Below, piece by piece: positions 3,934 through 37,100 of a DNA stretch of 64,000 nt (position 1 is the stretch's first letter; each line of letters opens with the position of its first letter). The stretch is from Liolophura sinensis (taxonomy: Eukaryota > Mollusca > Polyplacophora > Chitonida > Chitonidae). Made by a program: the position numbers and the translations under genes. The notes below the pieces were generated by a model. The model was not told the DNA's origin, made no database searches, and saw nothing but the letters and a program-made list of their open reading frames with translations. The stretch covers positions 1,215,001-1,279,000 of the forward strand of contig NC_088299.1 of assembly GCF_032854445.1 (NCBI RefSeq), given 5' to 3'.

Positions 3934-6900
3934 CCTATAAAAGTTGTTAAATGTTGCTATTGTATAATACACATTTTAAAATTATTTCTGGACTTGAAAG
4001 TGTGCAAACTGATTGCATGTAAATATGATAGTTGTTGTATAGAGAAATAAACATGACAATCTGTTGTGGTAATGATATTTCTGACAAAGATTACTCAGTT
4101 AGGTCAACTGATATTTGTCATGTACTTCCAAAAATACGTAGATTTACAGCGACACTTACACTGCACTCGCTGATCAACCAGTGTTGTTGTTGTAGACTGT
4201 CAACTGCACTCACGTTGGACCCCAGACGTTTAGGTAGAGGGCGTTCTTGCGTATATATCTCACGTATATTCCTCTTGTTAAGGACACAGAAGACTCAAAT
4301 TCACCTCACTGTCATCAGTTGAAGTAGCCCCCTGGGGCTAGCCCTTGGGCTTTAGTTTCGTTTGATCATAGCTCATACTAGAAGTTATGCCTTGCAGTCA
4401 AACAAAGAGAAATAAAAACCAGTGTGATTTTACGATAGTTGCTTGAGTGAATATGTAAATTATATTGTTGATTCTATGAGCCTTGCTACCCTTTATCCAT
4501 ATGGATTGAAATCCGTACTCACTTTAGTGTAGATATATTGATGCCAGGAAGGCATCCACGGCATGTACCTTCATCACACCTTTTATCTACCCATAAAAAA
4601 CTCACATTCATCCCGACGTATACATGTAAGTGAAAACTTTTTATTTATTTATTTATTTGATTAGTGTTTTACGCCGTACTCAAGAGTATTTCACCTATAC
4701 GACTACGGCCAGCATTATGGTGGGTGGAAACCAGGCAGAGCCCGAGGTCAACCCACGACCATCCGCAGGCTGCTGACAGACCTTCCCACGGAAAACTTTT
4801 TAAGCATGGCATTTAAGTAAACAATAATCAAATCAGTGAATATTTATGAGTGTGTGCATATGTATGTAAAAGTGAATGTGATTTTCTTGTTTTACAGATG
4901 GCTGATGACAGAATGGCTCTTGTGTCTAGCTCAAGTCATGATCCAGAATTAGGAATGAGCTCAGCAAAGGCCAAACTTCCTCCAGAATGGTGAATTTTAA
5001 ATTGCATGTACATAAGGCCATCATAAAAAAATGCTTTATTGTGGTAAACCCAATTCGATCTGAAATATTTTTTCAAAAGCCAAGTTGAATAAATACTTTG
5101 ACTCAAGACTCTATTGGAGGTTCAACCCAGTTACATGTACTCTCAATAAGTACATTTTCATTGATGGTCTAAGTACCAAGATATCTTCAACAATATGACA
5201 GTACATGTCATTCGTTTTATTGATAGTTAGTACCGGCTTTCCATGAAAACATTTCTATGATATTCTGCATGTTTAAAACATCTGCAATAATGTTCCCCAT
5301 ATTGTTGTCACATAAATCATGAGGATTATGTGAGCGTGTTTATCTGGCCTGTTTTAGTGAATGTAAATGGCATATATATATGTATATCTGAAAGGTTTTT
5401 TTTACTTGATTTCAGGGTAGATGGTGTTGAAGAGTTCCAGTACGAGGTGTCCAGAATAAAGGACAAAAGTACGTGTCTGCACATGAATACATAAATTCTT
5501 TTATTCTCAGCTGCTCATTACCATGATGTTAATGTTGATTATTTTAAGCACTGTTAAGTGTCAGAATAGCAGGATATATTTATTAATTAGCCAGAATAAT
5601 GCTTTGATAGTTTTGGTACATACAGGGTTTGCATTTCAATCACTAGGACATGAGATGTGGGTTCAAACCCAACATTGTCAGGGATTTTTTTTTTTTCACT
5701 TGTTGTTAGCTCTCATTCTTTGTGGGGCCTGGTGACAATAAGCAACTGTCATGTGACTGTTCATGCAGTTTTATGTTTGTTGTAAATCACTTGCCTTCAA
5801 CCAATATGGAGCGCATATCTTTAGATCACATGTGGGAAAATTTGTCAGTATGTTGCCAAAGATCAGTGCTTTACCCCAGGCACTCCAGTTTCCTCCACCC
5901 ATTACACTGACTGCGTTCATATAGAAGAAAAATACTTGAATATGGCTTTAAGCAACAATGAGATAAATAAATATGAACTGAATCAATGAGGCTTGCATGA
6001 ATTTTAAGAACAGTTGGTATATTGTTACATGTAAATGTGGAAGTTTTCAGTGGTGCTAGATACGTATAAAGCTAAATGTGATCTTTTCTATGGTATGATT
6101 TTTTTCTAAACATAGTGAAAGAACTAGCAACATTGCATGACAAACACCTAAACAGACCCACACTAGATGACAGCGTTGATGAGGAACATGCCATAGAGAT
6201 ACAGACACAGGATATTACACAGGTGAGGAATGTGGGTAAAACATGTTACGTGACACACAGCTGACTAGTTCTGAGATTGTGGGTGAGAAACTGACCCTGG
6301 TGATACAGACACAGGATATAACACAGGTGAGGGATACAGGTAAAACATGTTATGTGACACACAGCTGACTAGTTATGAGATTGTGGGTGAGAATCTGAAC
6401 CTGGTGATATAGGCATAGGATATAACACAGGTGAGGGATACAGGTAAAACATGTTATGTGACACAGAGCTGACTAGCTCTGAGATTGTGGGTGAGAAACT
6501 GATCATGGTGATACAGACACAGGATATAACACAGGTGAGGGATACAGGTAAAACATGTTATGTGACACAGAGCTGACTAGTTCTGAAATTGTGGGTGAGA
6601 AAGTGACCATGGTGATATAGACACAGGATAGAACACAGGTGAGGGATATTGGTAAAACGTGTTATGTGACACACAGCTGACTAGCTCTGAGATTGTGGGT
6701 GAGAAACTGACCCTGGTGATACAGACACAGGATATAACACAGGTGAGGGATACAGGTAAAACATGTTATGTGACACACAGCTGACTAGCTCTGAGATTGT
6801 GGGTGAGAAAGTGACCATGGTGATACAGACACAGGATATAACACAGGTGAAGGATACAGGTAAAACATGCTATGTGACACAGAGCTGACTAGTTCTGAGA

Positions 6901-9900
6901 TTGTGGGTGAGAAAGTGACCATGGTGATACAGACACAGGATATAGCACAGGTGAGGGATATGGGTAAAACATGTTATGTGACACAGAGCTGACTAGTTCT
7001 GAGATTATGGGTGAGAAACTGACATTGGTGATACAGACACAGGATATAACACAGGTGAGGGATACAGGTAAAACATGTTATGTGACACAGAGCTGACTAG
7101 TTCTGAGATTGTGGGTGAGAAAGTGACCATGGTGATACAGACACAGGATATAACACAGGTGAGGGATACAGGTAAAACATGTTATGTGACACACAGCTGA
7201 CTAGTTCTGAGATTGTGGGTGAGAAAGTGACCATGGTGATACAGGCACAGGATATAACACAGGTGAGGGATACAGGTAAAACATGTTATGTGACACACAG
7301 CTGACTAGTTCTGAGATTGTGGGTGAGAAAGTGACCCTGATGATACAGACACAGGATATAACACAGGTGAGGGATATGGGTAAAACATGTTATGTGACAC
7401 ACAGCTGACTAGCTCTGAGATTGTGGGTGAGAAAGTGACCCTGGTGATACAGACACAGGATTTAACACAGGTGAGGGATACAGGTAAAACATGTTATGTG
7501 ACACAGAGCTGACTAGTTCTGAGATTGTGGGTGAGAAAGTGACCGTGGTGATACAGACACAGGATATAACACAGGTGAGGGGTATGGGTGAAACATGTTA
7601 TGTGACATACAAATGGTGATACAGACACTGTGACCATGGTGATACAGACACAGGATATCACAGGTGAGGGATATGGGTAAAACATGTTATGTGACATACA
7701 AATGGTGATACAGACACTGTGACCATGGTGATACAGACACAGGATATCACAGGTGAGGGATATGGGTAAAACATGTTATGTGACATACAAATGGTGATAC
7801 AGACACTGTGACCATGGTGATACAGACACAGGATATCACAGGTGAGGGATATGGGTAAAACATGTTATGTGACATACAAATGGTGATACAGACACTGTGA
7901 CCATGGTGATACAGACACAGGATATCACAGGTGAGGGATATGGGTAAAACATGTTATGTGACATACAAATGGTGATACAGACACTGTGACCATGGTGATA
8001 CAGATACAGGATATATTCCGTATTTGTTAACTGAGTGTGTATTAGTCATTTTTGATATTCACGTCAACATTTTTAAAATATACAGATTCCTTGTACACAT
8101 ACACAGTGATGCATAAAAATTGCTGGTAAACATATGGCCAAATATTCCGCATCTGACAAAATACTCTGCTTTTCATTAGGCAACAACAATCACGTGGGGT
8201 ACAAATATATTCTCGAATCCTGCAGATGATGTTAAATGTGTCTGCTAAGTAGGTTATCTCCCTTTGTTGGGTCCTGAATATATTGGTCACAGTGCTGAAG
8301 TGATTTACCTGTACATGTACATTGGTCTGAATTGATGGGCCTTTACAGGATAAATTCGTAACATGGTTACTAAATGATAGGTTACGCAAATATATGGTGT
8401 CAGTAATCCTCATATTGGACAAGGGTATGAGGATTATTGACACCTTATATTTGCGTATCCTATCACTGAGTAACCATGTAACTAATAAAACTACTAATGA
8501 TGTACATACAGTCTAAATATTGGAAATGGTATACATGTAGCCTAAATATTAGAAATAATGTACAGATAGCCTAAATATTGGAAATGGTATACATGTAGCC
8601 TAAATATTGGAAATGGTATACATGTAGCCTAAATATTAGAAATAATGTACAGATAGCCTAAATATTGGAAATGGTATACATGTAGCCTAAATATTAGAAA
8701 TAATGTACATATAGCCTAAATATTGGAAATGGTATATATGTAGCCTAAATATTGGGAATGGTATACATGTAGCCTAAATATTGGAAATGGTATACATGTA
8801 GCCTAAATATTGGAGATGGTATACATGTAGCCTAAATATTGGAGATGGTATACATGTAGCCTAAATATTGGAGATGGTATACATGTAGCCTAAATATTGG
8901 AAATGGTATACATGTAGCCTAAATATTGGAGATGGTATACATGTAGCCTAAATATACATGTAGCCTAAATATTGGAAATGGTATACATGTAGCCTAAATT
9001 TTGCAAGTGGCGGAAAAAAATTACTAATGACAGATAAAAGCATGCACATCATTCAGATTTATTTATCTTCCTCATACCTGTGACAGCTGACAATGAAAGT
9101 CTGCTCGTTCACCATATTTGAGCTAAATGTTGTTTCAACTGAAAGTGAGACTATTCCCTATAATCCTCTTCTCTATGCTTTTCACAGCTTTTTGGAAGAT
9201 GTCAGAGGCTTGTTCATCAGATTGGATCAAAAAGTCGACTTGGAACAGAACAAGAGAAAAAGTTATCACTAAACATTACCTCTTCATTAGCGCGAGGGTT
9301 GACAGAAATGTCCACCAACTTCAGAAAAAGCCAGTCCTCCTACTTACGAAGTAAGTGCTCTTTATGTGTGATTAAGTAGTGGTACAGGTGAGGAATATGG
9401 GTAAAACATAGGTTGTGCATGGAACTAGGAAATAGATGTCTGGTATTTGCTGGTTTTATGGTCGCAAATTGAGCTTTATCAGCTGCAGGCTGAGTCTGTA
9501 CATCAGATATATATATGTATGTGTGTGTGTGTGTAAAATTGTCACATAATACTACCAAAGCATTCTTGTGACATTTTCACCATTGTCGAGGTTACCTTAG
9601 TCTATTTTCCTGCGAGATCAGCTGGATCTGGGATGTCACAGTGTAAACACATCACTGCCTCCGCTGGACAAGCTTTACCTTTGGAGCTGGTTTAAGCTAA
9701 ACTTGGCCACTGGGTTTTTTGCCCTGAACTATTTAAACAGCATTCAGCGATAAAATTGTTTCAGGAGGTGTTTAGGCGCAAGTTTGTCGTACTTTATGTT
9801 ATGAGAATGCATGCATATAAAATAGTTTAGACCTCAGATGTAGCTTGATACAGTTGTACCTGGGCAGTGACATCTGCTACAGATCATCATGTAGGTGTCT

Positions 9901-20128: not shown

Positions 20129-22166
20129 CTGGGAAAGGAAGAAACAAGTCAAATCAGATGGAGGCTGTCTTGTTTTGTTCCAATATTTTCCTGGACGTAC
20201 AGAACTGATGTATTACATATATACATGCTGAAAAGTATACTGGGGTAGATCAATATTTTTCAGTTTACATACAGTATACATGTATCATTAAATTAAATAA
20301 CTCTAAGCTATTCCGTAAACTTATTTATTTGAATATTTACTGCCAAACTCCAGAATTTTTCACCTGTACGACGACCGTCAGTTTTACGGAGGAGGTAACC
20401 TGAGTGTCGGGTTACAAGCGAACTTTTCTGTATACTAGTCAAGACTTGCATACCACACTGGTAGAAGACAAGTGGTCTTCAATGAAATAATCCTGTGCAA
20501 ACAGCTAATTTTCACCAAGTATCCACACTGGAAGTGTCGGAATCCTGCAATTCTCTGTTATTAAGACTGGGATTGAACCTGTTCACTCCATGTGCCAAAG
20601 GGTTGGAGTGGAGCACTTTTATATATCACATAAATGATGGTAACTGGGCGGAGCCTGGAGGGGATCACCCCAAGTCTCCAGCTACATGCATCTGATAAAC
20701 TTCCTCATGTAAATTTAGCAACAACCGAACATCCTGTGAACATTCTCCTGTATGCATAAAACCATACACCACTCATACACTTATATACCACATACATACA
20801 CCTGTATCATACACGTGAACCTGTACCACACACATAAACCTGTACTACCTACATAAACCTGTGCTACACACATAAACCTGTGCTACACACATAAACCTGT
20901 ACCAACCACGTAAACCTGTACCACACATAAACCTGTACCACACACATAAATCTATACCACACATATAAACCTATACCACCCACGTAAACCTGTACCACAC
21001 ACATAAACCTGTACCACACACATAAACCTATACCATCCACATAAACCTACACACCTAACCCTATACCACACACCTAAACCTGTACCACCCACATAAACCT
21101 GTACCAAACACATAAACCTATACCACACACATAAACCTATCTCTGTGATAATATGGCCATTGTGGCAATAAGCCATATTCATTCATTCATTCATTCATAA
21201 ATCCATCTAAACTTTCATATCCCCGTGAAAACCATCTCAAAATAGTCGGCGCCATTTTGATACTATTAGGACCAACTCATTCCCCCAACTCCCGCTGCTC
21301 AAGGGGCCCTGGTGACAGTAAGCGGACAACCATGCTTGTGTGGATGTTTGCCCTGTGTAACATTCGTCATCCACAAATATGGTGTACATATCTGTACCTA
21401 TCTTTGACCTTGCCAACTTTTGGGTCCGTGGTTATGTCAGGCACCCTAGTTCCCTCCACCTACGAAACTGACTGCCATCGTATACGTGGTCTTGAGTATA
21501 GCATTAAGCTGCATTCAAATTTAAAATCTTGAAGAAGTGAACATTTCCTACCTGTTGTACTTGCCCCTCAGCTATCTTTGTCATATCAGCCACCAGATTT
21601 CTGGAGGTAGGTAAATCCTACACAAACAAACAAACATGCAATTACCAGTCTCGCCACTCACAGAGAACTGTCCAAGGTATTAACCTATACAACTCTCCTG
21701 AAAAAGCAAAGCCTAAAAATAACACCAAGAAATTACTATCAAGTAATAGTTGACTGAATTACACTGGTCTTGCTTTATCCATGCAAAAAATTTAATTTAC
21801 CTACACTTCAGGCAAGTAACCTTAATTTACCTATGTTTTTACACAGGCAGTTTGCCACATTCCATCCAGGACTGTTAAACCCAAATTATTATAATTAAAC
21901 TAAAATAAATTTACTGATAAGCCAAAGAACTTGAGCCTGTTTCCAAATTCTGAAACACTGTCATGGTTGTCTTGAGCCGTCATGTACAGCATGGCTGTAC
22001 AGTGAAGGCAATGTGTTGCATATACATATATTTGTTTGCACAAATAAATAAATAAGTACATGTAGGCTTATTATTTAATAATTAGTGAAGTAGTTTATAT
22101 TAAAACAAAATATCGTATACTCGAGAACAAACTTGAATACCCTGTAATCAAGAGAACGGTGCGTGG

Positions 22167-22197
<31 letters not shown>

Positions 22198-25100
22198 GGG
22201 GGCGGCAGACCTAAACACTTGTGGTCTCAAAGAGTAAGCTACTATAAAACTCAAATTTTGTGCGAAATTCGTGTTAAAGTAAATATACTGCAAGTCATCA
22301 CGGTGTTCATAACAGACATGACAGTTTACAAGAAATAGGTCAGAATTTATCGTTAAAATATCTAATGATCGCGGGCCAACGGTCAACCAAGGGTCCGCAT
22401 ACGATGACCAGGGGATCACGTTGTGATGAGGGTATGAGGGTCCATGGATGGCCACAATGGGGGTAGGATTGATGGTTAGGATCGGGCTGTACTGTACGTC
22501 TCATGTTGAGAACTTTGATGATGACACAACCATCCATTGTAGTGTTAAAACTGTTATGGAAATTGAGACACCTCTGAACGAAAGCCTAAAAGCTGTTACT
22601 GTTTTGGTGTTATGACAACTAAATGTATTTAAATCCCGATACAACAAAATTTATGTTAAGTTCTCGACAGTGTCTCAGAAGAGTAAAAGACAATGCCTTT
22701 AACATAAAAATTAAAAACTCTTTAATTCACCAAGTCTAATTAACAAAACTGCTTTTTTCATACATGAAACACTTACATGACAAGATCGTATTGATTTCAT
22801 TTGCAAAAAAATTTCACTAGTTCTTGGAATTTTAAGGCAGAACAAGACTTATCTGGATTTGAAGTCACGAAAAACTTCTTTTCATAGCTATATTTTCCCA
22901 CATTTTAATTACTGTAGTTCAGTATGAGGAACTTGTACAGAGTCTCTTATTGATATTAATTAAGCTTCGACATAGAGCTGCTAAAATTAGTTTAGACTGT
23001 AAAAATACATACTTCTACAGCTCCAATTCTCCTAGAGTTACATTGGATGCCAATTTCTGATCGCATCAGATACCGTACGATTTGTCTTTTAACTGTTTTA
23101 ACTATATTTTAACTATTGCATGATGAGTCACCACTATATCTAAAAAAACTGCTTCTTAAAAACACAGCTGTACACTAGAAATTTCTCATATCAACTGTTA
23201 ACAACCGTCATACTGATAAGCATAATTCTAACTATTACAAAAATTTACAATAGTGCGCTGTCATGCTTTGAACAGTTTAGAATGTCTAATCAAAACAGCA
23301 CCATCACTTTCCGCTTTTATAAGTCAAGTTATTTGAAAAATTATTTCAACCGGTAAATTGATATAAGCTGATATGTACATGTAATGATGTATTATTGACT
23401 GTTTTCATGTTTTTAAAAAAAATGGAATGACATATACTGTTAGTACTTGTTTAATCTTCTTGTATTGTTAAAGAGGGCGTCTGGGGAGAGCAAACTGTTC
23501 AATTTGACAGAGCTACCCTCTTTAAATAAAGGTTTCATTCATTCATATAATAAAACATTCACGAAATACAGGTTTCCCTGCAAACACCAACTGGATGAGG
23601 AAATCAACATCCCGCATCAATTTGCCCTTGTAACCATAGTGATGAATGACGGGAATATTTACAGTGAAGACAAATGGTGAAGAGATAACTGAATCATGTT
23701 AGCGTGAAAACAAAGATCTCTGACCTGCCAACAATCACAGCATAGATCTTTGTGACTGAGTAGAAAATAATGGAGCAGGCTACAATGGAAAGCAATGCTC
23801 TGTATTTTGTTACTCACCATAACATAGATCTTTGTGACTGTGTAGAACTTAGCGGAGCAAGCTACACTGCACAGCAATGCTCTGTATTTTGTTACTCACC
23901 ATGGCATAGATCGTTGTGACTGTGTAGAGCCAGGAGGAGCAGGCTACACTGGACAGCAATGCTCTGTATTTTTTTACTCACCATAGCATAGATCTTTGTG
24001 ACTGTGAAGAGCTTAGCGAGCAGGCTTCACTGGACAGCAATGCTCTGTATTTTGTTACTCACCATAGCATACATCTTTGTGACTGTGAAGAGTTTAGTGA
24101 GCAGGCTACACTGGACAGAAATGCTCTGTATTTTGTTCCTCTCCATAGCATACATCTTTTGTGTACAGCTTAGCGGAGCAGGCTACACTGGACAGCAATG
24201 CTCTGTATTTTGTTACTCACCATAACATAGATCTTTGTGATTGTGTAGAGCTTAGCGAGCAGGCTACACTGGACAGCAATGCTCTGTATTTTGTTACTCA
24301 CCATAACATAGATCTTTGTGACTATGCAGAGCCAGGAGGAGCAGGCTACACTGGACAGCAATGCTCTGTATTTTGTTACTCACCATAACATAGATCTTTG
24401 TGAATATGAAGAGCTTAGCAGAGCAGGCTACACTGGACAGCAATGCTCTGTATTTTGTTACTCACCATAGCATAGATCTCTGTGACTGTGTAGAGCTTAG
24501 CGAGCAGGCTATACTGGACAGCAATGCTCTGTATTTTGTTACTCACCATAGCATAGATCTTTGTGACTGTGTAGAGCTTAGCGAGCAGGCTACACTGGAC
24601 AGCAATGCTCTGTATTTTGTTTCTCTCCATAGCATAAATCTATGTTACCGTGAAGAGCTTAGCGGAGCAGGCTACAATGGAGAGAAATGCTCTGTATTTT
24701 GTTACTCACCATAGCATAGATCTTTGTGACTGTGTAGAGCTTAGCGGAGCAGGCTACACTGGACAGCAATGCTCTGTATTTTGTTCCTCTCCATAGCATA
24801 GATCTTTGTGACTGTGTAGAACTTAGCGAGCAGGCTATACTGGAAAGCAATGCTCTGTATTTTGTTACTCACCATAGCATAGATCTATGTGACTGTGAAG
24901 AGCTTAGCGGAGCAGGCTACACTGGACAGCAATGCTCTGTATTTTGTTCCTCTCCATAGCATAGATCTTTGTGATTGTGTAGAGCTTAGCGAGCAGGCTA
25001 CACTGGACAGCAATGCTCTGTATTTTGTTACTCCCCATAGCATAGATCTTTGTGACTGTGAAGAGCTTAGCGAGCAGGCTACTCTGGACAGCAATGCTCT

Positions 25101-28100
25101 GTATTTTGTTACTCACCATAGCATAGATCTCTGTGACTGTGTAGAGCTTAGCGAGCAGGCTACACTGGACAGCAATGCTCTGTATTTTGTTACTCACCAT
25201 AGCATACATCTTTGTGACTGTGAAGAGCTTAGCGAGCAGGCTACACTGGACAGCAATGCTCTGTATTTTGTTACTCACCATAGCATAGATCTTTGTGACT
25301 GTGTAGAGCTTAGTGGAGCAGGCCTTATACAGATCATCTCCTGACCGAACCCCTTTAGCCTTTAGGACATCATGCACAATCTGCTGTAGCCTCTGATAAA
25401 CACAACCAGAAAAGTAAGATTGAAAATTTATCCCCGAACATATAATCAAAAATTCATTCTTATGAAAAAAAATAAAAATGATGTGAAGATTACATGATGT
25501 GACCAGTCTTACCCTCTTGTGTCTATCAGATCTTGAGCTTTTTTTCTTGTCAGCTGCTTGGTCTGCTGTGGGTTCCTCTGCTGGAGGCACATCTTCCTTG
25601 AGTACTCGTCGCGTTGGCCCTGTCTTCTTCTTGTCATCAGGAAGGCCCCTGGCAGGTCTCTCCACAGTCAGTTGGGTAAGGGGATCACCCAAAGGCTTCT
25701 GCTTAACACCAGGCTCCTTTGAAGTTTTGGGGCACAGTTCAATCCGTCTGCACAAAAACAAAAAAAAAACATGAACATATACATATTAAATTAAAAAAAA
25801 AGAAAAAGAAATACATGTAGATCAATGAATATCAAATCATCAAGAAAAATTCATCTACAGAAAACTTGTTTTCATCAAGTCTCTAAATACAATATATCAC
25901 TCAGAAAATAAACTTAAAGGGTGCAAATTCTGGTTTTGTGCTTGACTATCATCACATCACAGCACAAACGGCTGAGAGTGGAGCTACGCATTTAAACAAT
26001 AAATGGTTGCTGAGGCAAGATCAGGATTTACTGGCCTTAGAACTCTGGAGATTCATCCTGATTTTGTTCCCATGTGCATCGCCACAGGTATGCCATATTT
26101 TGTTTCCATCTACGAGTTGTGTATTGCGTATTTTAAACCTCTTCTTGAAGTCCCATGCTGTACAAATAGCTTACTGATTGCCAGCAAAGTATAAATTAAG
26201 CCAGTAGTGATGCTATGCCATTGCAGACACACAATATGATAGCAAATGGTCAAGAGCTTATTTTAATTCACCTTTCAGCTGCTGTGAAATTGTCGTGTTT
26301 TAATGACTTTATTTCAAGACTCCTGGCTGCAGCCGCGATGGAGTCAACCATCAAAATCTAAATTGCTGACCATACAGCCATGAAGATGGTCCCTGCCTAT
26401 CATGTCTTCATAGCTAGAAGTTTTAGAGCTACTGGTTTCCAGACCACTCAAATGATAACAAACCTACCTCTTATCCCTGATGACACCAGTGGAGAGCCTG
26501 TCCCTTGGTGGGGCATGTTTCCTAGGGGATCGTCTGACAGGGCTTCGACAGACTTTCCTCACAGCCTTCGTCTTGATGGCAGAACAAGAATGATCGAGAA
26601 TTCCAGAGGAGCTCACAGAGATTGTAGATCGTGTCTCAGAACCTAGGTGGCGCTGTTTTAGTTTAGAGTACTGCAATTCTAACTTCTCACATCTACGGCC
26701 ATTGTTGTAACTGAAAAAAGTTATGAAATATATAACTTTGAACTCAAAAAAAAATTACAAGAAGTAAATTCTACAAATTTATATCCCACACTAATGACTG
26801 ATCAGGATGAAGTGTATCGTTAAATATGCAAAACTTATACATGGATCAAAATGGTTTTGAACTTGATCTGAGGGGCCACAAAATGAGCCTGACAGGCCAC
26901 AAAATGAGACTGAGGGGCCACAAAATGAGACTGAGGGGCCACAAAATGAGCCTGAGAGGCCACAAAATGAGCCTGAGAGGCCACAAAATGAGACTGATGG
27001 GCCACAAAATGAGCCTGAAAGGCCACAAAATGAGACTGATGGGCCACAAAATGAGCCTGAGAGGCCACAAAATGAGACTGAGGGGCCACAAAATGAGCCT
27101 GATAGGCCACAAAATGAGCCTGAGAGGCCACAAAATGAGACTGAGGGGCCACAAAATGAGCCTGAAAGGCCACAAAATGAGACTGATGGGCCACAAAATG
27201 AGCCTGAGAGGCCACAAAATGAGCCTGAGAGGCCACAAAATGAGACTGAGAGGCCACAAAATGAGCCTGAGAGGCCACAAAATGATCCTGCACCCAAACT
27301 TTTATCAAAACCAGACAATGTTTGAAGCAGTTATTTCCACATAAACCACAGGCCAAAGATAGTGTTAAATATGCAAAACACACAGATCTTGCTGGTTTTC
27401 AAACCTTACCAGAACCTACACAAAATTGTACCTAACTTGAAATAAGATATCATTTTAATAAGTTACTTAGTTAAACTTATGCACCTATTCAACTGGTTTT
27501 TGAACTCTATCTAAGATTTAACACTCACTGAACAGATTACTAGTGATTTCAGAGCCATCAGATTGCACACTGGGATTTCAGCCAGTTCAAATAAATTGTT
27601 ACATGAAAGTCATGTTTATTGTAATCAATCTAATTGCTTACAACTTTCAAAAGTATGTTCTGTGTTGTACTCGTTAAAGGCCTACACTGTAGAGTCTGTA
27701 GAAACTTTTTGTTTCTACATACTTCAGTACAAATCTTCAATGACTTACTATATGTCATGAAACTTTACATCCTTGCACTCAGGCCAGCTTAACTCACGGT
27801 CATCGAAGGATGATATCTTAGATAGCACAGAGCTACCTTCCTGCGAAAAAGAACAGAAGCTTAGTTTCACAACCGATAGCCGGGTTTTTTTTGCTGCACT
27901 GTACACAGTGAGTGAGTGCTTTGGGTTTTACGTCATACTTACACTGTACATAGAGTGAGTGAGTGAGTGAGTGCTTGGGGTTTTATGTCATACTTACACT
28001 GTACACAGAGTGAGTGAGTGCTTGGGGTTTTATGTCATACTTACAATGTACATAGAGTGAGTGAGTGCTTGCGGTTTTACGTCATACTTACACTGTACAT

Positions 28101-31100
28101 AGAGTGAGTGAATGCTTGGGATTTTATGTCATACTTTTACACTGTACACAGAGTGAGTGAAAGCTTGGGGTTTTACGTCATACTTACCCTGTACATAGAG
28201 TGAGTAAGTGCTTGGGGTTTTACGTCATACTTACACTGTACATAGAGTGAGTGAATGCTTGGGATTTTATGTCATACTTACACTGTACATAGAGTAAGTG
28301 ATTGCTTGTGGTTTTAAGTCATCCTTACACTGTACATAGAGTGAGTGAGTGAGTGCTTGGGGTTTTAAGTCATACTTACACTGTACATACAGTGAGTGAG
28401 TGAGTGCTTGGGGTTTTACGTCATACTTACACTGTACATAGAGTGAGTGAGTGCTTGGGGTTTTACGTCATATTTACACTGCACATAGAGTGAGTGAGTG
28501 CTTTCGGTTTTAAGTCATGCTTACACTGTACATAGAGTGAGTGAGTGCTTGGGGTTTTATGTTATACTTACAATGTATACAGAATGAGTGAGTCCTTGGG
28601 GTTTTACGCCATACTTACACTGTACACAGAGTGAGTGAGTGCTTGGGGTTTTACATCATACTTACACTGTACATAGAGTGAATGAGTGCTTGAGGTTTTA
28701 CGTCATACTTACACTGTACATAGAGTGAGTGAGAGCTTGGGGTTTTACGTCATACTTACACTGTACATAGAGTGAGTGAGTGCTTGGAGTTTTACGTCAC
28801 ACTTACACTGTACATAGAGTGAGCGAGTGAGTGAGTGCTTGGGGTTTTACGTCATCCTTACACTGTACATAGAGTGAGTGAGTGCTTGGGGTTTTACTTC
28901 ATACTTACAATGTACACAGAGTGAGTGAGTGCTTGGGGTTTTACGCCATACTTACACTGTACACAGAGTGAGTGAGTGCTTGGGGTTTTACGTCATACAT
29001 TGTACATAGAGTCACTGAGTGCTTGGGGTTTTACATCATACTTAAAATTTACATAGAGTGAGTGAGTGTTTGGGGTTTTACATCATACACTGTACATAGA
29101 GTCACTGAGTGCTTGGGGTTTTACATCATACTTACAATGTACATAGAGTGAGTGAGTGCTTGGGGTTTTACGTCATACTTACACTGTACATAGAGTGAGT
29201 GAGTGCTTGGGGTTTTATGTCATACTTACACTGTACATAGAGTGAGTGATGGCTTGGGGTTTTACGTCATACTTACACTGTACATAGAATGAATGAATAC
29301 TTGGGGTTTTACGTCATACTTACCCTGTACACAGAGTGAGTGACTGCTTGGGATTTATGTCATACTTACAATGTACATAGAATGAATGAATACTTGGGGT
29401 TTTACGTCATACTTACCCTGTACACAGAGTGAGTAAGTGCTTCGGGTTTTACGTCTTACTTACACTGTACATAGAGTGAGTGAATGCTTGGGATTTATGT
29501 CATACTTACAATGTACATAGAATGAATGAATACTTGGGGTTTTACGTCATACTTACACTGTACATAGAATGAATGAATACTTGGGGTTTTACTTCATACT
29601 TACCCTATACACAGAGTGAGTGACTGCTTGGGACTTATGTCATACTTTTACACTGTACATAGAGTGAGTGAGTGCTTTGGGTTTTAAGTCATGCTTACAC
29701 TGTACATAGAGTGAGTGAGTGCTTGCGGTTTTACGTCATACTTACACTGTACATAGAGTGAGTGAGTGCTTGGGGTTTTATGTTATACTTACAATGTATA
29801 CAGAATGAGTGAGTCCTTGGGGTTTTACGCCATACTTACACTGTACACAGAGTGAGTGAGTGCTTGGGGTTTTACATCATACTTACACTGTACATAGAGT
29901 GAATGAGTGCTTGAGGTTTTACGTCATACTTACACTGTACATAGAGTGAGTGAGAGCTTTGGGTTTTACGTCATACTTACACTGTACATAGAGTGAGTGA
30001 GTGCTTGGAGTTTTACGTCACACTTACACTGTACATAGAGTGAGCGAGTGAGTGAGTGCTTGGGGTTTTACGTCATCCTTACACTGTACATAGAGTGAGT
30101 GAGTGCTTGGGGTTTTACTTCATACTTACAATGTACACAGAGTGAGTGAGTGCTTGGGGTTTTACGCCATACTTACACTGTACACAGAGTGAGTGAGTGC
30201 TTGGGGTTTTACGTCATACATTGTACATAGAGTCACTGAGTCCTTGGGGTTTTACATCATACTTAAAATTTACATAGAGTGAGTGAGTGTTTGGGGTTTT
30301 ACATCATACACTGTACATAGAGTCACTGAGTGCTTGGGGTTTTACATCATACTTACAATGTACATAGAGTGAGTGAGTGCTTGGGGTTTTACGTCATACT
30401 TACACTGTACATAGAGTGAGTGAATGCTTGGGATTTTATGTCATACTTTTACACTGTACACAGAGTGAGTGAAAGCTTGGGGTTTTATGTCATACTTACA
30501 CTGTACATAGAGTGAGTGATTGCTTGCGGTTTTAAGCCATACTTTTACACTGTACATAGAGTGAGTGATTGCTTGCGGTTTTAAGTCATACTTACACTGT
30601 ACATAGAGTGAGTGAATGCTTGGGATTTTATGTCATACTTTTACACTGTACATAGAGTGAGTGATTGCTTGCGGTTTTAAGTCATACTTACACTGTACAT
30701 AGAGTGAGTGAATGCTTGGGATTTTATGTCATACTTTTACACTGTACATAGAGTGAGTGATTGCTTGCGGTTTTAAGTCATACTTACACTGTACATAGAG
30801 TGAGTGAATGCTTAGGATTTTATGTCATACTTTTACACTGTACATAGAGTGAGTGATTGCTTGCGGTGTTAAGTCATACTTTTACACTGTACATAGAGTG
30901 AGTGATTGCTTGCGGTTTTAAGTCATACTTACACTGTACATAGAGTGAGTGAATGCTAGGGATTTTATGTCATACTTTTACACTGTACATAGAGTGAGTG
31001 ATTGCTTGCGGTTTTAAGCCATACTTTTACACTGTACATAGAGTGAGTGATTGCTTGCGGTTTTAAGTCATACTTACACTGTACATAGAGTGAGTGAATG

Positions 31101-34100
31101 CTTGGGATTTTATGTCATACTTTTACACTGTACATAGAGTGAGTGATTGCTTGCGGTTTTAAGTCATACTTTTACACTGTACATAGAGTGAGTGATTGCT
31201 TGCGGTTTTAAGTCATACTTACACTGTACATAGAGTGAGTGAATGCTTGGGATTTTATGTCATACTTTTACACTGTACATAGAGTGAGTGATTGCTTGCG
31301 GTTTTAAGTCATACTTACACTGTACATAGAGTGAGTGAGTGAGTGCTTGTGGTTTTATGTCATGCTTACACTGTTCATAGAGTCAGTGAGTGCTTGGGGT
31401 TTTACATCATACTTAAAATGCACATAGAGTGAGTGAGTGCTTGGGGTTTTACGTCATACTTACACTGTACATGTGCAGGTAACAAATTGGTCTTCAATGA
31501 CATGCTCAAAAATTTATGACTTATTATTTTATATGACAGCTGTCAGATTTATGGGAATAAATATTAATATCAAATATTATCATATATGTCACAGTGTATC
31601 ATTTACCATGTACAAGGTAAATGCTGGGGAAGTTGATTACCTAACATTCTGCACAAAGACCAAGGCTTCAAAGATTCAACAAAGCCATACAGTAATGTTT
31701 GCTAATTTTTTAAACTTCGTGATCTGGATTCAAACCCTGGAACTAAGAAATTGTAGGCAGGTGGGTCTGAGGTTCTGATGTTAGCAGGTTTCGGCTGTCA
31801 TTTTATTAAGTCGGAAAAATCAACGCACTGAATTATCCCTGCTTCTATTTTTCTTTGAATGTGACAGGAAATGGTCTACGATCTCCATATTGCACGGTAT
31901 GTGACAGGTGTAATCTTGTTAAACAGTGTTTATCTCATTCAAGTCATCTTCAGTTTCTTTGAAGAATTAATTAAGTTTAACAAGAACAGGTACATGTATC
32001 ACACCACAATGTGCAACAATGCACTGCGGCAGCAACAATGTACTGCGGCAGCAACAATGTACTGTGGCAGCAACAATGCACTGTAGCAGCAACAATGCAC
32101 TGTAGCAACAACAATGTACTGTGGCAGCAACAATGCACTGTAGCAACAACAATGCACTGTAGCAACAACAATGCACTGTGGCAGCAACAATGCACTTTGG
32201 CAGCAACGATGTACTGTGGCAGCAACAATGCACTGTAGCAGCAACAATGTACTGTGGCAGCAACAATGTACTGTGGCAACAACAATGTAATGTACTGTGG
32301 CTGCAACAATGTACTGTGGCAGCAACAATGTACAATAGCAGCAACAATGTACTGTGGCAGCAACAATGTACTGTGGCAGCAACAATATACTGTGGCAGCA
32401 ACAATGTACTGTGGCACAACAATGCACTGTGGCAGCAACAATGCACTGTAGCGGCCACAATGCACTGTAGCAGCAACAAGGACAGCCATCACACAGGAAA
32501 TACCAGTAGTCTAGTCTACTTCTGTGTAGCCCAGATTACCGCTCTTAATGTCCAAAGCAAGCAACACTCTGTTCGGCCTTTGAAGAAAGTAATTATTCGC
32601 AGGTTTAAAAATTCCTTATCCTTCCACTTAACTTAAAGTTTTACCTGCCTACATTATTTTAACATTATGAAAATAGAATCATGTAACAAAACAAAACAAC
32701 GGTGACTAAATCTTCTCTTCGACAAAAAAGGGATTACTTTTCCTTAATTTAGACTTTATTATAATACAGCACAGCAAGTTCGTTTTGGACTCAATCTTAC
32801 ACAAAGCACGTCATCTCAACAAAACAGTCTTACCTTTCCCTGTAATATGGAGAGGTTAGTTCCAGCTGCGCTGCCATCAGCTGCGAACAGTTTCAGGAAA
32901 TCTCCGACATTAACCGACTTCTCAGCCTCTGAAACACACAATTACATACACTATTCATTTGTTTAAAGCTACACTATGCTTTTCACTTCAATGACTGCTA
33001 CCACTTTTAACACTGGAAGAAACCGGAGTGGCCAGTGTAAACCACCGACCTTTGACAAGTTATCGTCCTACAAGTATTCTACCTTGTTCGTGGAAGACGA
33101 GATCTTTAATGAACGTTAGATTATGCAAACAGTCATACCAGGGTTCGCCCAGGTGATAAGGAAATAAATTCCATGACTTTCCAGGACCCAGAACACCAAA
33201 TTCACGCACCTGGTTATACTGTCTGTCACACACAGGCCTCACATGTAATTCATCCCGATATTATGTCAGTGAATGACACTCTCATCTCTCACCATTGCCA
33301 GCAAGTCTAAACTCAGTTTGTGTGTGATAGAGATTGTAATTTGCATTTGTTCACCTTCATCTCCAAACTTACTACAAGAAGAAATGAAGCACATTCCCGC
33401 CATTTTGCACTGGAGAATTGGTCTTGGTCAAGAGTTGCTTCCCCTGTCACCTAATGACTGGGAACCTCATCAATACATATATGCAGTTAGGATCACATTT
33501 GCAATATTATAGCCATTTTTTGGCCTTTGTGTTTTATTCTTATATTTGAATCAAGCTTATTTATACCCACTTCAATTTCGTTTGAACAGGGAAGCCCTAA
33601 CAGCCGCCAATTGGTCACAAAATGAAATGTGTAGTGTGGCATTTATTTCAACATTTTACTCCTGCTAACTGACTAACTCAAACCAATATGCTAGTACAAA
33701 GGATTCTGATATTATCTACTGATTGGCACAACACCAGCAGTCTCATGTACTTACATGCAACCCCTTGAGCCAAAGTTTGATCTCTACCATTAATAGCCAC
33801 TCATCACACAAATTTTCTGGGCATTTTAACGGTCAAAATAATCATGGGTCATGCACAGCCAAACTTGTAGAAATATCAGTCACTGCTTTAATGAAGCTAA
33901 ACTATAGTTATCCATTATCTAGGGTTGCTAACTTTATATACACGGCCATGGAACTGTAATACTAAAATGCTGCAAAACATGAGTCAACCAAGTTGCGATA
34001 TGGAGTGGACACAGATGATGCCTTGGAAGAGAACTGATATAAATACAATCAAACTTTATACCTCTTAACCTTCCATATCTAAAATTCAAGCACTTTGAAG

Positions 34101-37100
34101 GACGTTTATTACAAATTAGTCAATTTAAACCACTTTCAAGGCTTAGAATACGTAAAAACAAATTTAAGCGCTTTTGAGGTTTTAGTAAAGCACTTGTGGA
34201 TAAATCCTGCAATACGAGTGCCCTCAACCGCTTATTGTCACAATGACCACAAGAAGAGTGCGGGCAGGGAAATTCACCAATTACCCTCTTTCTAGGGCCG
34301 GGACAGAACTGGTACATTTCTACCTCTTGTGTCCTTGTGACTGAAAAACATGCACCTTTAACCACTCAGTTACTACCTACATGTATACTGTAATTCGTTG
34401 ACCTTTTATAGGACCAGTCATTCACAATAGAGACCCGATCCAACCACCTGTTGTTCTGGTATTTGCTCTGAACAGATTACATGTACTTGTTGTGAATATC
34501 TTTGTAATACACCCGACTGGCACCTGACTTTATGATGGCTTTACTGAAATAGTTTAGTAACAAAGTCAAACCCGAAGTCCAAATTAAAATGCAAATTAAA
34601 ATTTTCAGCCTCCATCTGCAAGTCTAGATTTGGCGGGAGATTTCACAATCGTGTTGAATTTTGAAGTAGTGGGTCAATGATAATAAGTTCATCTAATTGG
34701 TCAACACCGAATTCTGTAAGCTGTCAGTTACCCATAAGACTTATGCACACGCGACTGAGTCCCCCAGATAATGTGAGTAGGAATAGATTCAGCCCTGCAT
34801 GAACACAATGTTTACAACTGTTGCAATATGAAGCTGGTAATGGGCACACATTTCCACATATGCGAACACAATATTCGATGTTGTATGTTGAGTTTATGAT
34901 TGCCATTTTATGAAATCGGGAATGTCTGGAGACTGTTCTCGTCTACCTATACGGACTCGGTGCAAATTTTCTAATGTACAGACATGGCAATCGGCTGTCA
35001 CAATAATGCCAGAATGAGGTTTGAACATGTGTTAGTTTTGGAAATCTTGTCCCGAGTATGTTTACGTGTATAACTGATGGTTCCCAAAATGAAATGGTGG
35101 GAAAGTAGAACACTTCTAAAATGGGATGACGAAACACCACACCGCTTCGGGACCAGTAGATCCAGGACCAATCCTTGATCGAGTCACACCTAAGACTTTA
35201 AAAGAGGAAGTTGTAACTTCCTCGCTTGGCGTTCAGCATGAAGGGGATAGTGCAACGACTGGTTGACCTGTATCAGTATAATGGCTCGGGCGGGGCGGCT
35301 TACTTGCCTTCGGTAAGTCGTCTCAGTGAAGCAGCACTAAATAAAAGAGCGGTGGAAATCCGTCCTGCTACAAGGAGGCACATTACATGTACATGCACCC
35401 TAATGATTCCTTCGTCGTCATATGACTGAAAAATTGTTGAGTACGACGTTAAACCCCAAGCACTCACTCACTCACTCACGAAACACCACATGCTTGAGGT
35501 TTGGAAAACATCCCCCTGTATGTTATTGGACCTTACTGACAATTGCTTGTTAGTCAGGTTTTTATCGCTGAAATACATTTGCATGCTGATTTGTTACATT
35601 TATATATGGGATCTTGAACAGACAACACTGTTTCCCGTATAATGCATTCACCGAGGCTGTATAGCTGACAGCCGGAGAATTAGTCGTTAGCTTGCCAAGT
35701 TGACAACAACATGCTTTGAGTCAGTTTCAGAATTTACAGGTTTGTAACAACTGTGGCTTGATACTTTCTTCATTTCAATTCATTGATAAAAATATAGGTG
35801 TTGTCAAGCCTGCACCCCCTGGACTACTGTCATCTCGCCAAGCATGTGCACTGCACTCCTGTGGGGATGTTTGTCTAGACATCAATCGAGGCAGGAAAAC
35901 AACCGCCCACCCCACCACTGCAGCACCGTTTAAATTTCGATCATTCATTATAAAAGTGGCAAATTTCACGGTCTGACACACAGATGTGGCTTTAAACCAA
36001 CTGGTCGAAAAGGTCACCGAATTACGGCAGTGAATAAGGTTTCTATCTTGTAGTTCTTTTTTACTCTCTGTGCGAATTTTTTTTTTATAATCTATAATTA
36101 CGAACAAATACACATCTGCATAACACCCTCCATTACCATCTGTGAACTACTAAACCCACCTGAAATCAGTCAACTGCTAAACCCACCTGAAACCAGTCAA
36201 CTACTAAACCCACCTAAAACCAGTCCACTGCTAAACCCACCTTAAACCAGTCAACTGCTAAACCCACCTTAAACCAGTCTCCTTCACCCACATCTGGATG
36301 CATTCACCATTAAGGTCAAGGACAGAAACTAAATCTCATGCACCCACACTTCACTCACCCAGCCATGCTTCAAAATCTGTGGGTTACATCAAAGGGGAAG
36401 ACCACTGGAGCCACAAGCCTTATGTCACACATATCTTTCTCATCCCACCCATCCACCCACCAAGCCATTTAACTATCCACACTTACCTTCTGTGGGCTGT
36501 ATAGGTGAAGACTGCTGTAGACTGTCAGATGACATAAAGCGTGACATCTTCCTGGAGCTACTCTCCTGTAACTTGAGGGCTTGTCTCTCTGGCCAGTCCA
36601 TATTCTCTGAGAAAGAAGCATTAATTCCAAGCTTGGAAAGGTTAAATGGATTGTTACAATTATCCAAAATATAACAGAGAGCTAACACCACCTGACAATA
36701 ATCAATTTTGTTTTATAAATCTACCTGTTAGCCCAAAAGACTGTTAAACAACTCTATATGTATTCTAACTCCCAGGGTTACACACTGATCATATAATTAT
36801 TCCTCAGTTGGTTAGCGCACTAGCGCAGCGTAATCACCCAAGAGCCTCTCACCAGTGCGGTCGCTGTGAGTTCAAGTCCAGCTCATGTTGGCTTCCTCTC
36901 CGGACATAAGTGGGAAGGTCTGCTAGCAAAATGCGGATGGTCATGGTTTCCTCCCACCATAATGCTGGCCACCGTCGTATAAGTGAAATATTCTTGAGTA
37001 CATTGTAAAACACCAATCAAATAAATAAATAAATAAATAAATATAATTATTCAATTCCCTGAATCAACTCTACATGTACATTACATCGTTCACTCTCGTG

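Follow-up and report, generated by a model that had tools for sequence, protein, structure and literature searches.

A stretch of 64,000 nucleotides from a chiton genome (the window, G000:C5:1215001-1279000, in a genome of 609 Mb and 632 contigs) was found to carry, within an intron of the gene MTBP on the minus strand, a minisatellite that repeats the end of a coding exon together with its 5' splice site. The assembly was published as that of Liolophura japonica, with 632 scaffolds, 609.5 Mb and 28,010 annotated protein-coding genes (PMC11068029), and the species was later corrected to Liolophura sinensis (PMC12441733). The seed of the repeat is an exon of 114 nt (25279..25392, minus strand), delimited by its splice borders and open frame and ending in ...KLYTVTKIYAM, which is followed by the authentic donor GTGAGT (25273..25278, minus strand); the next exon, beginning DLPTSRNL..., lies at 21552..21617 on the same strand behind the acceptor gtttgtttgtgtag. 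When the C-terminal exons were spliced into a reading of 333 aa, residues 86–323 matched the Pfam family MTBP_C (1.7e-24), which identifies the gene. The junction of ...KLYTVTKIYAM with DLPTSRNL... at 21617 lies inside this match, so that any insert there would fall within the domain, and the statement of the preliminary description of this DNA, that the array sits where a conserved C-terminal domain is encoded, is therefore upheld. A search of the PDB with the C-terminal 72 residues of MTBP gave no match.

The array itself, at 23739..25323 on the minus strand, was reported by Tandem Repeats Finder (TRF) with a period of 81 (also 163), 19.5 copies, 90% matches and a score of 2541. Cut at the donor, it yielded 19 donor positions and 18 complete units (81 nt in ten, 82 nt in seven and 77 nt in one), followed by a tail copy that stops at the exon end and has no donor. 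The unit was found to consist of the last 44–45 nt of the exon and the first 37 nt of the intron, the first copy being the last 45 nt of the seed exon (25323-25279), and the genuine exon, open and with its acceptor, stands intact with its GTGAGT at the upstream edge of the array. These results agree with the preliminary description, in which about 19 units of 81/82 bp (17 of the 18 complete units have one of these lengths) repeat the exon end and the gtgagt donor, seeded from the exon/donor junction of MTBP. The exon copy has the 82-nt form, with CTCCACTAAG, and when the units were aligned starting in their exonic part, the 81-nt units were one base shorter at that place; as the exon is bound to stay in frame, the longer form is presumed to be the ancestral one. 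Between the exon copy and each of the 18 other units there are 3–11 differing positions, and neighbouring units differ from one another at a mean of 7.5, with no trend with distance, as expected if the copies are thoroughly mixed while the seed is under constraint. A genome search returned one locus for the array, the repeat counts of the tool being lower bounds.

The 19 donor positions were found in four states: GTGAGT (14), GGGAGT (one), GAGAGG (three, in units 5, 7 and 15) and GAGAGA (one, in unit 9); the earlier remark that some donors had been destroyed thus holds, with GAGAGA as a further form. The four units with GAGAGG or GAGAGA are best read as a single lost donor that was spread by exchange. 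Past the exon, the reading is open across four complete units, as far as donor 5; the following 82-nt unit brings in a stop, and donors 6–19 consequently all lie behind it. Donors 2 (25197) and 3 (25116), spanning 25111..25197 on the minus strand, have an intact GTGAGT, are in frame and are stop-free, and their use would add 81 or 162 nt (27 or 54 residues). Positions 4 (25035, GGGAGT) and 5 (24954, GAGAGG), at 24949..25035, are still in open frame and have lost the GT, and at positions 6–19 (23812..24872) GTGAGT is intact in 11 of the 14. An intact GT and an open frame are therefore combined at only two of the 18 downstream positions. The array had been called frame-preserving, with donors 2, 3 and onward inserting 27-residue repeats; this stands for donors 2 and 3, and fails for positions 4 and 5, which lack the GT, for positions 6–19, which follow the stop, and for the exon form itself, which has 82 nt.

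The donor hexamer was intact in 14 of the 19 units, compared with a mean of 14.2 (range 8–19) over the other six-column windows. Mean divergence was highest in the hexamer (0.079), followed by the exon part (0.053) and the remaining intron part (0.022), and the hexamer fell in the upper fifth of six-column windows by divergence. The donor hexamer of MTBP is not protected, and no clear sign of its purging was seen. Selection on the decoys, as had been suggested, is not supported by the number of intact gtgagt donors, which shows no conservation above other 6-nt windows, or by the hexamer, whose divergence exceeds that of the remaining parts. Two acceptor-like sites were also seen on the minus strand of the array, at 24672 (ttctctccattgtag; score 7.1) and 23756 (ttattttctactcag; score 7.2), the real next acceptor scoring 6.1 on the same rough matrix; the donor and acceptor matrices used throughout were written by hand from typical values, and no published model was applied. 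Combined with the decoy donors, these sites could allow exonisation of a unit. Elsewhere within an MTBP intron (54100-52060, minus strand), long open reading frames with an intron-like gap were noted by eye, perhaps derived from a transposon.

Junction arrays were recognised in three genes, namely MTBP, a syntaxin-16-like gene (STX16) and a gene of the CLPTM1 family, the last with two arrays, one at a donor and one at an acceptor. Pfam gives only the family; syntaxin-16, and CLPTM1L rather than CLPTM1, are designations taken from the presumed human relatives. The STX16 seed exon (6116..6222, plus strand) ends in ...EIQTQDITQ and matched Syntaxin_2 at 2e-4, below the Pfam cut-off, and later exons matched SNARE at 7.9e-23. 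Its array, delimited by TRF and by cutting into units, occupies 6191..8014 on the plus strand, with 104-nt units at 6191-7611 and an 89-nt derivative at 7539-8014. Its 18 donors, found by pattern and spaced by 104 or 89 nt throughout, so that none was skipped before the tail, comprise 17 GTGAGG and one GTGAAG, and all 17 decoys (donors 2–18) lie behind a stop. Of the 13 104-nt units examined, 12 had the hexamer intact, where other windows average 10.5. The CLPTM1-family donor array (60-nt unit, about 22 copies) lies beyond the window, at window-equivalent positions 74128-75437 (C5:1289128-1290437), where the reading that enters the array matched CLPTM1 at 4e-8. It holds 18 donors found with a GTAAG-like pattern, units without such a donor appearing as double-length units (n=3), and the frame is open up to donor 4. 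The acceptor array of the same gene (118 nt, 2.9 copies) lies at window-equivalent positions 87568-87910 (C5:1302568-1302910), and its last copy is the genuine exon; three exon readings joined together matched CLPTM1 at 1.9e-6.

In the 264 kb surveyed, TRF gave 73 merged arrays of period ≥20, of which 21 lie inside a homeobox gene repeat; four of the remaining 52 were recognised as junction arrays, and none of six in 50 kb of scaffold C1. These counts are minimum values, as exons were annotated within known genes only, and since recognition relied on similarity to known proteins, further junction arrays may have been missed. An exon finder written for this work detected several known exons and overlooked others, the MTBP seed exon among them, and the counts do not draw on it. 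Additionally, a 77-nt array of about 20 copies at window-equivalent positions -47992..-46459 (C5:1167008-1168541) seems to repeat the coding end and the stop of a minus-strand gene (...DDDVIF and stop; DEEEGMPDEGDDDVIF and stop), and was not counted, as no Pfam family was found for the gene. Other donor-rich arrays (e.g., 27907-31472 and 36145-36279) touch no recognised exon and were likewise set aside. The first of these, a 47-bp minisatellite of 75 copies, has a unit that resembles the start of a sequence recurring once at ~35480 (gtgagtgagtgagtgcttggggttt), like a dispersed repeat.

Arrays of the same kind have been described in amphioxus as 'mirage' minisatellites, which lie across exon-intron boundaries of Adh3 and of the globins BflGb6 and BflGb9, at both boundaries, and which, according to the authors, leave regular splicing undisturbed, as suggested by reverse transcription PCR and the Adh3 data (PMC3087553). 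The MTBP array corresponds to these, its unit joining the exon end to the adjacent intron and many, though not all, of its copies (14 of 19) retaining the splice signal. The host here is a chiton mollusc, of another phylum than the one in which mirages were named, and the genes are others; the chiton arrays are known from the DNA of one assembly, and the donor arrays reach about 18–22 units, compared with 3–6 reported for amphioxus BflGb6. In humans, the variable number tandem repeat (VNTR) in intron 18 of ABCA7 includes the exon 18 donor, so that each unit can offer a donor, as here, and retention of one unit was observed; that unit, however, is 25 bp long, starts from the donor GT and hence has no exon sequence, is out of frame and varies in length in a disease-linked manner (PMC5954066). 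The 31-bp VNTR of human CBS (c.1444_1467+7) comprises, by its coordinates, an exon end and 7 nt of intron in 16–21 copies (PMC2630376); its unit is shorter than that of MTBP, and the repeat is polymorphic in humans. At the exon-intron boundaries of duplicated human genes, internal tandem repeats can alter splicing and create introns; they differ in having units of 30 bp on average, repeated four times, in recent paralogues (PMC2812944). Among the literature matches listed, all open-licence papers, no junction array of this type in a mollusc was found. An abalone intron minisatellite is not described as boundary-spanning in the part of its report drawn on here (PMC6905558), one chiton genome paper uses neither 'tandem' nor 'satellite' in its main text (PMC11068029), and another neither 'tandem repeat' nor 'minisatellite' (PMC12005716). 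The kind is already known from amphioxus and humans; what is new is the mollusc setting and the local recurrence of several arrays close together.

The MTBP array is most probably a mirage, that is, an ordinary minisatellite of passive origin that is spliced normally. This reading is supported by the exon-seeded content of the unit, donors at background level (14/19 against 14.2 in MTBP; 12/13 against 10.5 in STX16), the same architecture in STX16 and twice in the CLPTM1-family gene, the minisatellite-dense region and the published parallels. The founding tandem duplication would have happened to span the exon end and the 5' splice site, so that the exon and donor already present stayed at the upstream edge and every copy fell into the intron; as nothing would have been lost, the array would be tolerated and could persist and expand. 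Unequal crossing-over or slippage may then have multiplied and exchanged the copies, spreading the one-base deletion of the 81-nt form and the dead-donor variant GAGAGG. In the mRNA, splicing would be expected to start almost always from the first donor and now and then from donor 2 or 3 (27 or 54 more residues), and stop-carrying products of later donors would be degraded. Use of the next donor at low frequency is plausible, because retention of one unit is documented at ABCA7 (PMC5954066).

Several points weigh against a mirage. On the hand-made matrix, the intact MTBP decoys scored 10.4, the same as the real donor, and 14 of the 17 CLPTM1-family decoys scored higher (9.4) than the first donor (6.2), with one at 7.7 and two equal; the 9-nt donor is identical to the real site in 13 intact MTBP decoys and in 16 of the 17 STX16 decoys. 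Strength alone therefore cannot explain silent decoys, and if splicing is normal at the arrays, the choice of donor must depend on the exon context or on the order of synthesis; normal splicing is itself inferred from genomic DNA, as are the mechanism of origin and the homogenisation. Additionally, when random seeding was evaluated in the window (13 seeds against 26 donors), two donor-spanning arrays were seen for 0.27 expected (P ~0.03), and array birth may thus not be purely random; this test was post hoc, with exon ends partly read by hand and several MTBP ends by eye. A bias of array birth towards donors is therefore no more than possible. The stronger proposal, that breaks or slippage linked to splicing or transcription preferentially generate junction arrays at 5' splice sites, would account for this value, for donor arrays making up three of the four junction arrays recognised in 264 kb, and for their length (about 18–22 units against 2.9 copies in the acceptor array). 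It is nevertheless judged rather unlikely: the sample is small, P rises to ~0.10 (0.53 expected) once the 26 acceptors are added, none of the six arrays on the other scaffold was recognised as a junction array, and the amphioxus arrays occur at both boundaries (PMC3087553). Equally tentative is a joint reading in which junction arrays would be common genome-wide in this chiton and born preferentially at 5' splice sites, MTBP and STX16 would be correctly spliced despite 13 and 16 identical downstream decoys by a choice that sets position or exon context above site strength, and leakage in the frame-compatible arrays (81 nt in MTBP, 60 nt in the CLPTM1 family) would yield isoforms of variable length.

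Two functional proposals fare less well. That the array serves as a repeat cassette, donors 2 and 3 giving MTBP proteins with one or two additional 27-residue repeats in the C-terminal domain, would fit the intact, in-frame and stop-free state of these donors, the next-donor use reported for the human ABCA7 repeat (PMC5954066) and the CLPTM1-family donor array, which is likewise open as far as donor 4. It is improbable, however, since the exon copy has the 82-nt form, so that the frame was probably not preserved at birth, since just 2 of 18 downstream positions qualify with donor conservation no higher than background, and since the insert, placed within a conserved domain, would probably disrupt it. 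A regulatory decoy or poison element, in which donors beyond 5 would yield stop-carrying mRNA for nonsense-mediated decay and so tune the level of MTBP (or STX16), is slightly less probable still. All of MTBP donors 6–19 and STX16 donors 2–18 do lie behind a stop, and many identical donors could presumably bind U1 in competition; the MTBP donors, however, show no excess conservation, and the arrays occur in three unrelated genes with different units, as a passive origin predicts. An assembly artefact is most improbable of all: tandem arrays are generally error-prone, but the units are non-identical, neighbours differing as given above, and the published HiFi reads, with a mean of 8.3 kb at 14X (PMC11068029), exceed the 1.6-kb array.

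The homeobox gene repeat excluded from the survey lies to the left of the window, from C5:1115001 to ~1163000 (L002-L006), where a 2.28-kb unit is repeated in tandem about 21 times and carries open reading frames that end in a TALE-type homeodomain. One copy matched Homeobox_KN at 8.4e-15, and 15 of the 21 motif-holding readings have 332 aa, the rest being shorter, longer or cut. The copies resemble what are presumably the spiralian TALE (SPILE) homeobox genes. A search of L002 against Rfam gave nothing at gathering scores. On contig C632 (15,209 bases, of which 10,000 were read), readings recognised by eye as ND1, ND6, CYTB, ND4L, ND4 and ND5 share a strand, with ATP6 and COX2 on the opposite one, and the gene order is presumably the ancestral molluscan one; ARAGORN, run with the bacterial code, found no tRNAs on this mitochondrial stretch.

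Each donor array places a series of near-identical donors downstream of a real one and is thereby a natural experiment on the choice of 5' splice sites: if normal mRNA is made from these genes, exon context or the order of synthesis must outweigh site strength. The occurrence of such arrays in a chiton suggests that mirages are not a peculiarity of cephalochordates. Junction arrays also supply raw material from which introns could be gained and exons extended, as was proposed for the amphioxus globins (PMC3087553).

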